From: Planctomycetaceae bacterium
Lineage (GTDB): Bacteria > Planctomycetota > Planctomycetia > Pirellulales > PNKZ01
Direction: 5' to 3'
NCBI GenBank assembly: GCA_016793115.1
Contig: JAEUIN010000043.1
Location: 1-64,000, forward strand
DNA length: 64,000 nt
Shown: positions 35,794 through 42,731 of the stretch, in pieces
Numbering within the stretch: the stretch's first letter is position 1
Layout: every line of letters starts with the position of its first letter
Position numbers and translations under genes: made by a program
Notes under the pieces: generated by a model
The model's database searches: none
What the model saw: only the letters and a program-made list of their open reading frames with translations
Told to the model about the DNA's origin: nothing

Positions 35794-37901
<2,108 letters not shown>

Positions 37902-37902
<1 letters not shown>

Positions 37903-38711
37903 TGTCCGCACCGTTGATCACGAGCTTGCAAAATCAGCGCGTCAAGGATGCGGCGAAGCTGCGCGATCGCCGGCAGCGTGAAAAGCAAAATCGCTTTCTT
38001 ATCGACGGCACTCGGGAACTCGAGCGAGCGCTCGACGCGGGCGTGGAGCTTGGCGAAGTGTTCGTATGCCCGCAATTGTGCGCGACGGACGGTGCGCGGC
38101 ATCTCTTGGTCCGGCTTAATCGTGAGTGCGGCGAACGGGTCCAGCATGTTACGCCGGAAGTCTTTGAGAAACTGGCTTTCGGCGAGCGAGCCGAAGGCAT
38201 TATCGCCGCCGCGCCGACGCCTCGGCCGACGCTCGACGAACTAAAACTGCCCGAGAATCCGCTCGTGTGCGTGCTAGAGTGCGTCGAGAAGCCGGGGAAC
38301 GTCGGGGCAATTCTGCGCAGCGCCGACGCCGCCGGCATCTCGGCGGTGATCACGGCCGATGAGCGGACCGACTTGTTCAACCCCAACACGGTGCGAGCCT
38401 CGCTCGGCACGATCTTCCATGTGCCGACTGCGATCGCCGACGCTCCGACGACGCTCGCCTGGCTCCGAGAACGCGGGTTTGCGATGTGGGCCGCACGCGT
38501 CGGCAGCGGGCCGCTCTATAGCGAGGTCGACTATCGCGGTCCGACGGCGATCGTGCTCGGCAGCGAAGCGGAAGGCTTATCGGCTCGCTGGTGGGCCGAC
38601 GACATTCGGCCGGTGCATCTGCCGATGCTCGGCCGCGCCGACAGCTTGAACGTGTCGGTCGCGGCGGCCGTGATGTTCTATGAGGCGTTACGGCAACGCG
38701 GTGCGAAATAG
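37902..38711 (+). CDS. TrmH-family RNA 2'-O-methyltransferase
   Basis: SpoU/TrmH-type SAM-dependent methyltransferase of 269 residues that methylates ribose in tRNA or rRNA. An N-terminal substrate-binding domain (SLQNQRVKDAAKLRDRRQRE, FLIDGTRELERAL) precedes the knotted SPOUT domain, with motif 1 VEKPGNVGAILRSADAAG, motif 2 AIVLGSEAEGLSARWW and motif 3 LNVSVAAAVMFYEAL. The exact target nucleotide is not readable from sequence. It starts at the stop codon of the ygiQ-like gene and is followed by a terminator. Confidence 0.92.
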
Positions 38712-39369: not shown

Positions 39370-40371
39370 CTAAGCTTCCGCCATCTCGCGCGCGTGGTAG
39401 CTGGAGCGAACGAAGGGCCCGCTCGCGACCGACGTGAAGCCCATCGCCTTCGCGGCCGCGCCGTATTCGTCGAACTCGGCCGGCGGCACGTAGCGAACGA
39501 CCGGCAAGTGTTCCGGCGTCGGTTGCAGATATTGACCGAGCGTCAGCATATCACAGCCGACGTCGCGGAGATCGGCCAGAGTGTCGAAGAGTTCTTCGCG
39601 GGTTTCGCCCAGGCCGAGCATAAGCCCGCTCTTGGTCTTGATGGCCGGATTGAGTTCTTTTACCCGCTTGAGCAGGCCGAGCGTCCAGGAATATTGGCTC
39701 TTGCGACCGCGGACTTCGCGATAAAGCCGAGGCACGGTTTCCGTGTTGTGGTTAAACACCTCGGGCGCCGATTCGACGACTCTCTCCAGCGCGCCCGGCT
39801 TGCCGAGGAAATCCGGCGTCAGCACTTCGACGGCCGCGCCGGTGCGTTCTCGTACTGCCAGCACCGAGCGAAAGAAATGCTCCGCGCCGCCGTCGGGCAG
39901 GTCGTCGCGTGTGACGCTCGTGATCACGACGTGTTGTAGTCCCAGGCGAGCGGCCGCTTCCGCGACTCGTTCCGGCTCGTCGACTTCCAAGGCTTCCGTC
40001 TTCCCTTTGTTGACGGAGCAGAATCCGCAAGGCCGCGTGCAGACGCTGCCGAGGATCATGAACGTCGCGGTGCGCTGCGACCAGCACTCCATACGGTTCG
40101 GGCATTTCGCCTCTTCGCAAACCGTCGTCAGGCGCAGTTCGTCGAGCACGCGATCGGTGAAGTGGTTGGCGTTTCCCTTGGGCACGTTGCGCTTCAGCCA
40201 GCGCGGAAGCCGGCGTAGTTCGTCGGTCGCCTTCGACGACATGCCGCTGATGCCGATCGTGACGCCGTGCGCGTTGTCGTCGTGCGTACCGACCGTACCG
40301 CCGCCGCAACATCCGCCGCCGCTGGAACAGCTTCCGCTCGAACAACCGTCTGACGACTGAGCGGGAGCCAT
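39370..40371 (-). CDS. lipA: Lipoyl synthase with Cys-rich N-terminal tail
   Basis: Radical SAM enzyme inserting two sulfurs into octanoyl groups on E2 and H proteins. From ATG 40371 the protein has 333 residues. Both clusters are intact: auxiliary CEEAKCPNRMEC and radical SAM CTRPCGFC (C-x3-C-x2-C), with VVITSVTRDDLPDGGA and the C-terminal ASGPFVRSSYHA. An unusual N-terminal tail with CSSGSCSSGGGCCGGG, rich in Cys and Gly, is absent from typical LipA. An ATG at 40428 is also in frame and would overlap lipB. It follows the LipB homologue on the same strand. Confidence 0.94.
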   Translation of the reverse strand: MAPAQSSDGCSSGSCSSGGGCCGGGTVGTHDDNAHGVTIGISGMSSKATDELRRLPRWLKRNVPKGNANHFTDRVLDELRLTTVCEEAKCPNRMECWSQRTATFMILGSVCTRPCGFCSVNKGKTEALEVDEPERVAEAAARLGLQHVVITSVTRDDLPDGGAEHFFRSVLAVRERTGAAVEVLTPDFLGKPGALERVVESAPEVFNHNTETVPRLYREVRGRKSQYSWTLGLLKRVKELNPAIKTKSGLMLGLGETREELFDTLADLRDVGCDMLTLGQYLQPTPEHLPVVRYVPPAEFDEYGAAAKAMGFTSVASGPFVRSSYHAREMAEA

Positions 40372-40390
40372 CGGCAACGATATCGGAAAG

Positions 40391-41149
40391 CTATCCGGCA
40401 CGGGCGGAATCCTTCGGTGGAAGACCATTGCGGGGCGAAATCAGGGTGCGGGTCAACAGCGGGTGACCCGTGAACAAATGATACCGCTCGCACCCTAGGG
40501 CCGTCGACAGGTGGGTGACGACGCTTTGACGCACGGCCGGCATCCGAACCGGCCGGCGGAGCACGGCGGCTAGCGAACTCGCTTCCGCGCCGTCGATCGT
40601 ATCGCCGGCAACGGCATGTAAGTGCCTTTCGGCGGGATCGACGTTGAGGTACGCCCCGAAGTAGCTAACCCAACTCCGCACGGCCGAAGCGAGAAACATC
40701 ACCTGCCCGTTACGGCTCCAAATGCCGCGGCGTCCGGGGTGCGGCGTGCGCACCAGATGGAGATCGTCGGCCACGGCCTCGAGACCGGTTTGAAAGCGTC
40801 GCAAATATTCGCCGACCGAAAAATGGAAACTCTCCAACGGCAGCACCACGTATACCGCTAGCTGCCCGCGGGAGTGCAGCAGCGTCCCGCCGCCTCGATT
40901 GAGCCAGCGGACTCGAACTTGCTCGCGGTCCAACGTCTCGTCGCTCCACCGCACGTCGCAGCGGGAGCCTTGCCGGCCGATCGTGATCTCCGACGGATGC
41001 TCGCACAGGAGGAGCGTCGCGAGCCGCTCGTTGCGGCCCGACGCTTCGTAGACTAATCGCTGTTGCAGCGCCAGCACGTCGTCGAGTGGTTGCGTGCCAA
41101 GCAGATGAATCTGCGCAACGGCATCGGCGATCGGAGCGGCTTGCGACAT
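40391..41149 (-). CDS. LipB-like octanoyltransferase, catalytic residues apparently replaced
   Basis: A 252-residue protein of the biotin/lipoyl-ligase fold, immediately upstream of lipA. The LipB motif RWLNRGGGTLLHSRGQLAVY (canonical RGG-x2-TYHGPGQ) and SYFGAYLNVDP are clear. However, where LipB has the conserved Lys (GAKIA) this protein reads NGQVMFLAS near residue 150, and where it has Cys (NPCG) it reads AVAGD near residue 181. Either another mechanism operates, or the protein only binds the acyl group. Alignment is by eye, so the exact columns are uncertain. Confidence 0.8.
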   Translation of the reverse strand: MSQAAPIADAVAQIHLLGTQPLDDVLALQQRLVYEASGRNERLATLLLCEHPSEITIGRQGSRCDVRWSDETLDREQVRVRWLNRGGGTLLHSRGQLAVYVVLPLESFHFSVGEYLRRFQTGLEAVADDLHLVRTPHPGRRGIWSRNGQVMFLASAVRSWVSYFGAYLNVDPAERHLHAVAGDTIDGAEASSLAAVLRRPVRMPAVRQSVVTHLSTALGCERYHLFTGHPLLTRTLISPRNGLPPKDSARAG

Positions 41150-41307: not shown

Positions 41308-41802
41308 GTGAGCGCGAAGAAGTCCCAGCCCGAGCGAAAAAAGGGGGACGACGAGAATGAGCGATTGATCGCTCAGAATCGTCGCGCGCGCCATGAGTAT
41401 GAAGTGCTCGACACGCTTGAGTGCGGCATCGTACTCAAGGGAAGTGAGGTCAAATCGCTGCGCAACGGCAAGGTGTCGCTTGAAGAGGCGTTCGCTCACG
41501 TGAAAGGGGGTGAACTCTGGCTGCTCAATTGCGACATTCCGGAGTATGTCGAAGCCAATCAATTCAACCACGAGCCGAAGCGCCAGCGGAAGTTGCTCCT
41601 GCACAAGAGCGAGTTGGCTAAGTTCGCGAGCCGCGCGTTTGAAAAAGGATTGACGCTCGTACCGCTCAAATTGTACTTCAAGAACGGTAAGGCGAAGGTG
41701 CTCCTGGGAATGGCCCGCGGCCGCCAATTGCACGATAAGCGTGAAAAGATGAAAAAGGAATCGATGAACCGCGATATTCAGCGGGCGATGCGGCGCGATT
41801 AG
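41308..41802 (+). CDS. smpB: SsrA-binding protein
   Basis: Binds tmRNA and brings it to stalled ribosomes in trans-translation. The 164-residue protein (GTG start at 41308) has IAQNRRARHEYEVLDTLECG, IVLKGSEVKSLRNGKVSLEE and AFEKGLTLVPLKLYFKNGK, ending with GRQLHDKREKMKKE, the conserved tail that folds on the ribosome. The N-terminus is a short basic extension. The tmRNA gene itself was not found in the window. Confidence 0.95.
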   Translation: MSAKKSQPERKKGDDENERLIAQNRRARHEYEVLDTLECGIVLKGSEVKSLRNGKVSLEEAFAHVKGGELWLLNCDIPEYVEANQFNHEPKRQRKLLLHKSELAKFASRAFEKGLTLVPLKLYFKNGKAKVLLGMARGRQLHDKREKMKKESMNRDIQRAMRRD

Positions 41803-41885
41803 TCGCAGCCGCGGGGACGAATGAATCGTCCGCGAGATAGGAAGCCCCGGATCGTTTATCTCACTAACGGAGTTGCGAGAGTTCT

Positions 41886-42731
41886 ATGCTCGATTTGCAC
41901 GACAAGATGGAAGAAGCCGCGGCATTCATTACTGCCCGCGGAGCCTGCAAGCCACGAGTAGGAATCATTCTCGGCACGGGGTTGGGGAACTTCGCTCGGG
42001 AAGTCAAAGAAGAAGTCGTAATTCCGTATTGCGAGATCCCGCATTTCCCGACCTCGACGGCGATCGGGCACAAGGGCCAACTGGTTTGCGGCACGTGCAA
42101 CGGAGTGCCGGTCGCGACGATGGAAGGTCGCTTCCATAGCTACGAAGGCTATTCGTTGCAGCAAGTCACGCTGCCGGTTCGCGTCATGCGGAAGTTGGGT
42201 ATCGAATTGTTGATCGTGTCGAACGCGGCCGGCGGGATGAACCCGCACTTTCGCGTCGGCGACGTGATGATCATTGAAGATCACATCAATCTGATGGGGG
42301 ACAACCCGCTATTGGGTTACAACGACGAGCGCCTCGGCCCGCGATTCCCGGATATGAGCGAGGTGTACGATCGGAAGCTAATCGATCGAGCGATGGAGAT
42401 CGCCCGCTTGGCGAACTTCGCCGCGCATCGCGGAGTCTATGTCGGCCTGAAAGGGCCGAATTTCGAAACACGGGCCGAATATCGCTTTCTGCGGCTGGTC
42501 GGGGCGGATGCGGTCGGCATGTCGACCGTACCGGAGGTGATCGTCGCGGCCCATATGGGAATGCCGGTGCTGGCCATTTCGACGATCACCAACGTCTGCT
42601 TGCCGGACGTTCTGGAGAAGGCCGACGCCAATGAAGTCGTGCAAGCAGGGAAGAAGGCGGAACCGAAAATGCGCAGGATCGTCCTGGAGATTCTTGGCGA
42701 CCTAGCGAGTGACGGTGCGAACGTTCGTTGA
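41886..42731 (+). CDS. Purine nucleoside phosphorylase
   Basis: Family 2 (trimeric) PNP that cleaves purine nucleosides with phosphate for salvage. Its 281 residues include the phosphate loop GIILGTGLGNFA, HFPTSTAIGHKGQLVCG with the phosphate-binding His, MEGRFHSYEGYSL, VSNAAGGMNP, KGPNFETRAEY and a base site VGMSTVPEVIVA, and TITNVC with the key Asn. It begins 83 bases after smpB and may share its transcript. Whether it prefers guanosine/inosine or adenosine cannot be decided reliably. Confidence 0.92.
   Translation: MLDLHDKMEEAAAFITARGACKPRVGIILGTGLGNFAREVKEEVVIPYCEIPHFPTSTAIGHKGQLVCGTCNGVPVATMEGRFHSYEGYSLQQVTLPVRVMRKLGIELLIVSNAAGGMNPHFRVGDVMIIEDHINLMGDNPLLGYNDERLGPRFPDMSEVYDRKLIDRAMEIARLANFAAHRGVYVGLKGPNFETRAEYRFLRLVGADAVGMSTVPEVIVAAHMGMPVLAISTITNVCLPDVLEKADANEVVQAGKKAEPKMRRIVLEILGDLASDGANVR

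Follow-up and report, generated by a model that had tools for sequence, protein, structure and literature searches.

A lipA-linked LipB homologue without the Lys/Cys dyad in Planctomycetia: a probable binding partner, or a transferase with a different mechanism, in place of an octanoyltransferase

LipB uses a Lys/Cys pair for octanoyl transfer, which raises the question of what a LipB homologue that lacks both residues does beside lipA, the gene for lipoyl synthase. Such a gene is present in the genome of a Planctomycetaceae bacterium of the order Pirellulales (assembly GCA_016793115.1); the window refers to the whole stretch of DNA that was analysed, i.e. 64,000 nucleotides of contig JAEUIN010000043.1. 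A sequence-only reading had described the gene product as a lipA-coupled LipB homologue with the fold motifs kept and the catalytic Lys and Cys missing, and had proposed that it works by another mechanism, binds the lipoyl group only, or is helped by a separate ligase. The two genes are:

40391..41149, (-) strand: dyad-less LipB-like protein of 252 aa; ORF with a Pfam LplA-B_cat match (79.3 bits) and a predicted LipB fold
39370..40428, (-) strand: lipA, lipoyl synthase; TIGR00510, 373.8 bits (cut-off 310.25)

The LipB-like ORF starts with ATG and ends with TAG, and the Pfam match identifies an LplA/B catalytic domain. The NCBIfam LipB models match the protein with scores under their cut-offs, e.g. 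47.3 bits for TIGR00214 (equivalog cut-off 83.55 bits); two of 45 relatives match this model at E 1.2e-23, approximately the cut-off, and one of them (L036) scores 84.4 bits. The structure predicted with AlphaFold2 from the protein and 45 relatives (pLDDT 92.8) gave Z values of 28.0 to the Thermus thermophilus LipB (2QHS) and 25.6 to the Mycobacterium tuberculosis LipB (1W66) with VIA-align, and Foldseek TM scores by target of 0.90 and 0.82, respectively. Both programs rank these two LipBs first, and LipBs are also the closest proteins of solved structure. The fold is also shared, more weakly, with LplA-type proteins (Z approximately 17-21) and biotin protein ligases (Z approximately 14), but the window protein lacks the LplA accessory domain as well as the ligase Lys (see below). 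LipM and LipL are members of this superfamily too, and the genome also codes for a LipM-like protein. The LipM-like proteins, however, do not align with the window protein, which aligns with LipB, has neither the LCF nor the GSAQ motif, and is not matched by the LipL-type model NF053589 up to E 1. By descent and fold the window protein is a LipB, as the first reading had it; it lacks the two defining catalytic residues and is therefore not classed as an octanoyltransferase.

The dyad columns were set by alignment to the LipBs of E. coli (L102), T. thermophilus and M. tuberculosis, and were read in 111 relatives, 84 loci from Pirellulales (the order) and 27 from elsewhere in Planctomycetia (the class):

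40703..40705, (-) strand: codon of Gln149, column of LipB Lys135; clade Q56 L37 M8 R3 V2 K1 A1 H1 T1 I1, canonical LipBs K in 37/37
40601..40603, (-) strand: codon of Asp183, column of LipB Cys169 (alignment-dependent); Cys in 1/111 of the clade and in 37/37 canonical LipBs

These residues lie in GQVMF (residues 148-152) and AVAGD (residues 179-183). Which residue falls in the Cys169 column depends on the alignment, with Asp183 there in the large one and a Gly or an Ala in those of smaller size, since the Cys loop aligns poorly and varies in length, and the window protein has no Cys within two columns of it. PMC9307952 equates E. coli LplA Lys133 with LipB Lys135; this column is Gln149 in the window protein, so the ligase Lys is absent too. 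Shifted catalytic residues, which the first reading had named as grounds for refutation, were looked for and do not rescue the dyad: no column carries Lys in more than 17 of the 84 order proteins, and the sole widely shared Cys, Cys49 (85/111), occupies a different part of the fold and was lost more than once. A sequencing error or one-off mutation is ruled out by the 111 relatives without the full dyad. None of them has both residues (0/111), one has the Lys (L062) and one a Cys in the column, while both are present in 37/37 canonical LipBs and in 40/40 more, so that the reported absence of Lys and Cys holds well beyond the window.

The gene was detected in 84 of 196 order genomes. A profile built from 45 of these gave 87 matches, i.e. 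the same 84, a canonical LipB in G015 and two weak matches; the 84 order loci were read from 83 genomes, with G190 contributing two copies and a partial copy in G033 left out. In the phylum sample, 37 of 40 class genomes had a match and 28 loci were read, one of which (G082) was already in the order set. Outside the class the LipBs of the phylum keep the dyad in 73/73 loci, taken from the higher-scoring of the matches listed for 277 genomes with a match, and in one phylum listing dyad-less proteins scored at least 190 bits and canonical ones at most 182 bits. The window genome (assembly 99.11% complete) has two PF21948 matches only, and no canonical LipB was found elsewhere in it; a plasmid search returned distant LipBs only. 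In G015, of the same order, the canonical LipB with Lys and Cys (L103, 3326..4162, (+) strand) is not beside lipA; this genome has neither the dyad-less gene nor a LipM-like match, and its LipB is possibly a replacement. Full-text literature searches on planctomycete LipB, planctomycete lipoyl/octanoyl metabolism and LipB pseudoenzymes yielded no report of the dyad-less form.

The dyad loss is class-wide and has a single origin: in a midpoint-rooted tree built from all 37 canonical sequences and 79 of the 111 dyad-less ones (116 rows), a single branch with support 100/100 separates the dyad-less sequences from the canonical ones, the bootstrap being not fully settled. The genes are under purifying selection, with dN/dS ratios of 0.04-0.24 in 20 chosen pairs (rough for several of these, because dS is near or above 1), and the reading frames are open in nearly all loci of the clade. 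The dyad has been lost, yet the gene is kept by selection; therefore the protein probably either serves as a binding partner or transfers by a different mechanism, and is probably not the octanoyltransferase that it resembles.

What has been retained besides the frame can be read from the following segments:

40862..40897, (-) strand: RGGGTLLHSRGQ, residues 85-96, retained acyl-pocket loop; R85 in 107/111, G87 in 111/111, H92 in 110/111, G95 and Q96 in 111/111
40637..40657, (-) strand: GAYLNVD, residues 165-171; G165 retained in 111/111 and N169 in 105/111 of the clade
41003..41005, (-) strand: codon of Cys49, at the acyl-pocket position of E. coli LipB Val41 (position after PMC9307952); Cys in 85/111 of the clade and in 2/37 and 10/40 canonical LipBs

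The fold motifs said to be kept are thus present. Across the clade the pocket loop R85-Q96 is of constant length and retains RGG, H92, G95 and Q96; the window protein itself reads HSRGQ at the HxPGQ motif and departs from its own clade at Ser93-Arg94. With canonical LipB the window protein shares the whole-domain fold, the RGG and HxxGQ motifs, the Asn and the lipA linkage, but it has neither Lys nor Cys, nor the pocket Thr found at window position 90 in every canonical LipB and lost in 111/111 of the clade. The Cys loop is of free length in the clade, the N169-S192 segment that includes the former Cys loop being 21 to 45 residues long compared to 23-25 in canonical LipB. Moreover, S62, G88, R118, R146-x-G148, R207 and a C-terminal Pro, P230, among others, are conserved in the clade and not so in canonical LipB, with a basic residue at position 146 in 104/111. 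On the tree at least nine changes of Cys49 fall inside the clade, and its equivalent is present in 12 of 77 canonical LipBs; as a clean novelty of the clade it is weakened by the 10 of 40 further canonical LipBs that carry Cys there.

At its 3' end the LipB-like gene shares 38 bases with the longest lipA ORF. Within the stretch fetched for each locus, lipA was present in 79/84 order loci and 28/28 class loci; among the other five order loci, two (L060, L063) are truncated where the contig stops, lipA lies approximately 1.8 kb further in G028, and it is absent from 12 and 9 kb of sequence in G148 and G017, respectively. Hence lipA adjoins the gene in nearly every testable case, and the suggested coupling extends to the clade. 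Among the 196 order genomes lipA was found in 173, i.e. in 82/84 gene carriers and 91/112 non-carriers, and the non-carrier loci that were read had no detectable remnant near lipA. G190 has two separate pairs of lipA and LipB-like gene (L099, L117). The first 70 aa of the LipA encoded at 39370..40428, (-) strand, form an N-terminal extension rich in Gly, Ser and Cys (CSSGSCSSGGGCCGGG); similar Cys-rich extensions were seen in three genomes of the same genus (L033-L035) and none in L036, L041 and L047. The window neighbours are ordinary genes:

35794..38711 and 41308..42731, (+) strand: radical SAM protein with DUF3362, SpoU methylase, SmpB and purine nucleoside phosphorylase family protein

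A count of further family members, as the earlier reading had suggested, revealed another candidate for the transfer. The window genome has two LplA/LipB-family genes only, two GcvH matches and three E2-type genes; the second family gene is LipM-like, has its own Cys and Lys, and follows gcvPB in a gcv operon, and its contig carries a gcvH match as well. A LipM-like gene is present in 40/40 class genomes sampled and 173/196 order genomes, co-occurring with the dyad-less gene in 82 of its 84 order carriers (no match in G017 and G135) and being present in 91 of the 112 order genomes without it, and 35 of 36 LipM-like loci read have the LCF and GSAQ motifs and a Lys. A third, LplA-like member with GPGCLMY was found in 175/196 order genomes and not in the window genome; in this member (L003 to L020) an invariant Cys in GPGCL replaces the Gln of HGPGQ. 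The LipM-like, LplA-like and gcvPB labels and the motif reading were assigned here, the NCBIfam matches of the former two being sub-threshold. Across the phylum canonical LipB and LipM were not seen to exclude each other strictly: outside the class the LipM profile matched in 132/352 and the LipB profile in 277/352 genomes, both counts being differences of tallies and the former profile matches with motifs unread. Judged by its sequence, the LipM-like protein probably does the octanoyl transfer in the window genome. According to PMC10332631, GcvH is the target of LipM in B. subtilis and the group is then handed on by LipL; for LipM/LipA bacteria without LipL the same paper proposes amidotransferases yet to be found.

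All this is most simply read as a takeover of the transfer by LipM, with LipB losing its chemistry a single time and its pocket staying on as a binding site beside LipA. In the class ancestor octanoyl transfer would have passed to the LipM-like enzyme of the glycine-cleavage operon; the lipA-linked LipB would then have lost Cys and Lys once and been kept as a non-transferring partner of LipA, its retained RGG/HxxGQ/Asn pocket probably holding the octanoyl chain and presenting it to LipA, with octanoyl-GcvH, an E2 lipoyl domain or ACP as the carrier that may be bound. We infer, according to this scheme, that the LipM-like protein transfers, that the dyad-less protein does not, and that the latter works with LipA. 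The likeliest of the readings, which we put at about even odds, is that the window protein is a partner of LipA that binds acyl groups or lipoyl domains and does not transfer. Binding by such a protein has a precedent: the E. coli LipB double mutant K135A/C169A, in which both dyad residues are absent as in the clade, is described as catalytically inactive and binds C8-ACP with a KD of 36.4 μM (PMC9307952), and therefore a dyad-less LipB can still bind an octanoyl donor. The clade differs from the mutant in that its dyad-less state is natural, old and under selection, while the binding was measured for the mutant alone. Counting against a partner of LipA are the 112/196 order genomes without a full match to the gene; 91 of these have lipA, so any help to LipA is dispensable. 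The carriers G148 and G017, which have no lipA beside the gene, and G017 and G135, which have no LipM-like match, count against the scheme as well. Likewise, a new active site could include Cys49 and the conserved Arg146, both of which would face the pocket if they match the homologous positions named in PMC9307952, and this counts against a pseudo-transferase. Among the three options proposed at the outset, help by a separate enzyme stands, by sequence a transferase rather than a ligase, binding only fits best, and another mechanism is less favoured.

Such another mechanism, the main rival although we regard it as unlikely, would be a remodelled amidotransferase in LipL's place. The LipM-like enzyme would load GcvH, and the window protein would take the octanoyl or lipoyl group from there to the lipoyl domains of E2 proteins using a new active site, e.g. 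pocket Cys49 with His51 and conserved Arg146. The GcvH matches and three E2-type genes of the window genome agree with this, as does its small set of family genes, for the E2 proteins need a further enzyme if LipM does not have a broad range; the amidotransferases proposed in PMC10332631, the frequency of Cys49 at the Val41 position, which PMC9307952 lists among those matching lipoyl contacts of LplA, and the basic residue at 146 point the same way. Against it, Cys49 is changeable in the clade, occurs in canonical LipBs and is absent from most of one family despite gene retention, many order genomes have lipA and the LipM-like gene without the dyad-less gene, and the LplA-like member could do the job, though it is absent from the window genome. 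Slightly more doubtful is the claim that the clade is a new type of LplA/LipB-superfamily transferase without a Cys-Lys dyad and the missing GcvH-to-E2 amidotransferase of LipM/LipA bacteria.

It is decidedly improbable that the protein is still an octanoyltransferase, acting with no covalent enzyme intermediate, where the Arg85/His92 pocket would place octanoyl-ACP so that the lysine of the lipoyl domain could attack it directly. The near invariance of Arg85, Gly87, His92, Gly95, Gln96 and Asn169 and the retention of the gene beside lipA are compatible with such an enzyme, but the inactivity given for K135A/C169A in PMC9307952, the loss of the pocket Thr and the LipM-like enzyme with Cys and Lys in the same genomes all speak against it. 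Least probable is a functionless, decaying remnant, which would suit the patchy absence in the order with no remnant near lipA in the non-carrier loci read and the departure of the window protein at Ser93-Arg94, but not the purifying selection, the invariant pocket residues, the retention across the class, the frames open in nearly all loci or the clade-specific conservation of S62, R118, R146, G148, R207 and P230.

The dyad-less clade represents a natural counterpart of the laboratory E. coli LipB K135A/C169A, and with it a dedicated acyl or lipoyl-domain partner for LipA becomes testable. It also bears on how E2 proteins are modified in LipM/LipA bacteria without LipL, a question raised by PMC10332631, and for these genes a LipB label given by similarity alone can mislead.
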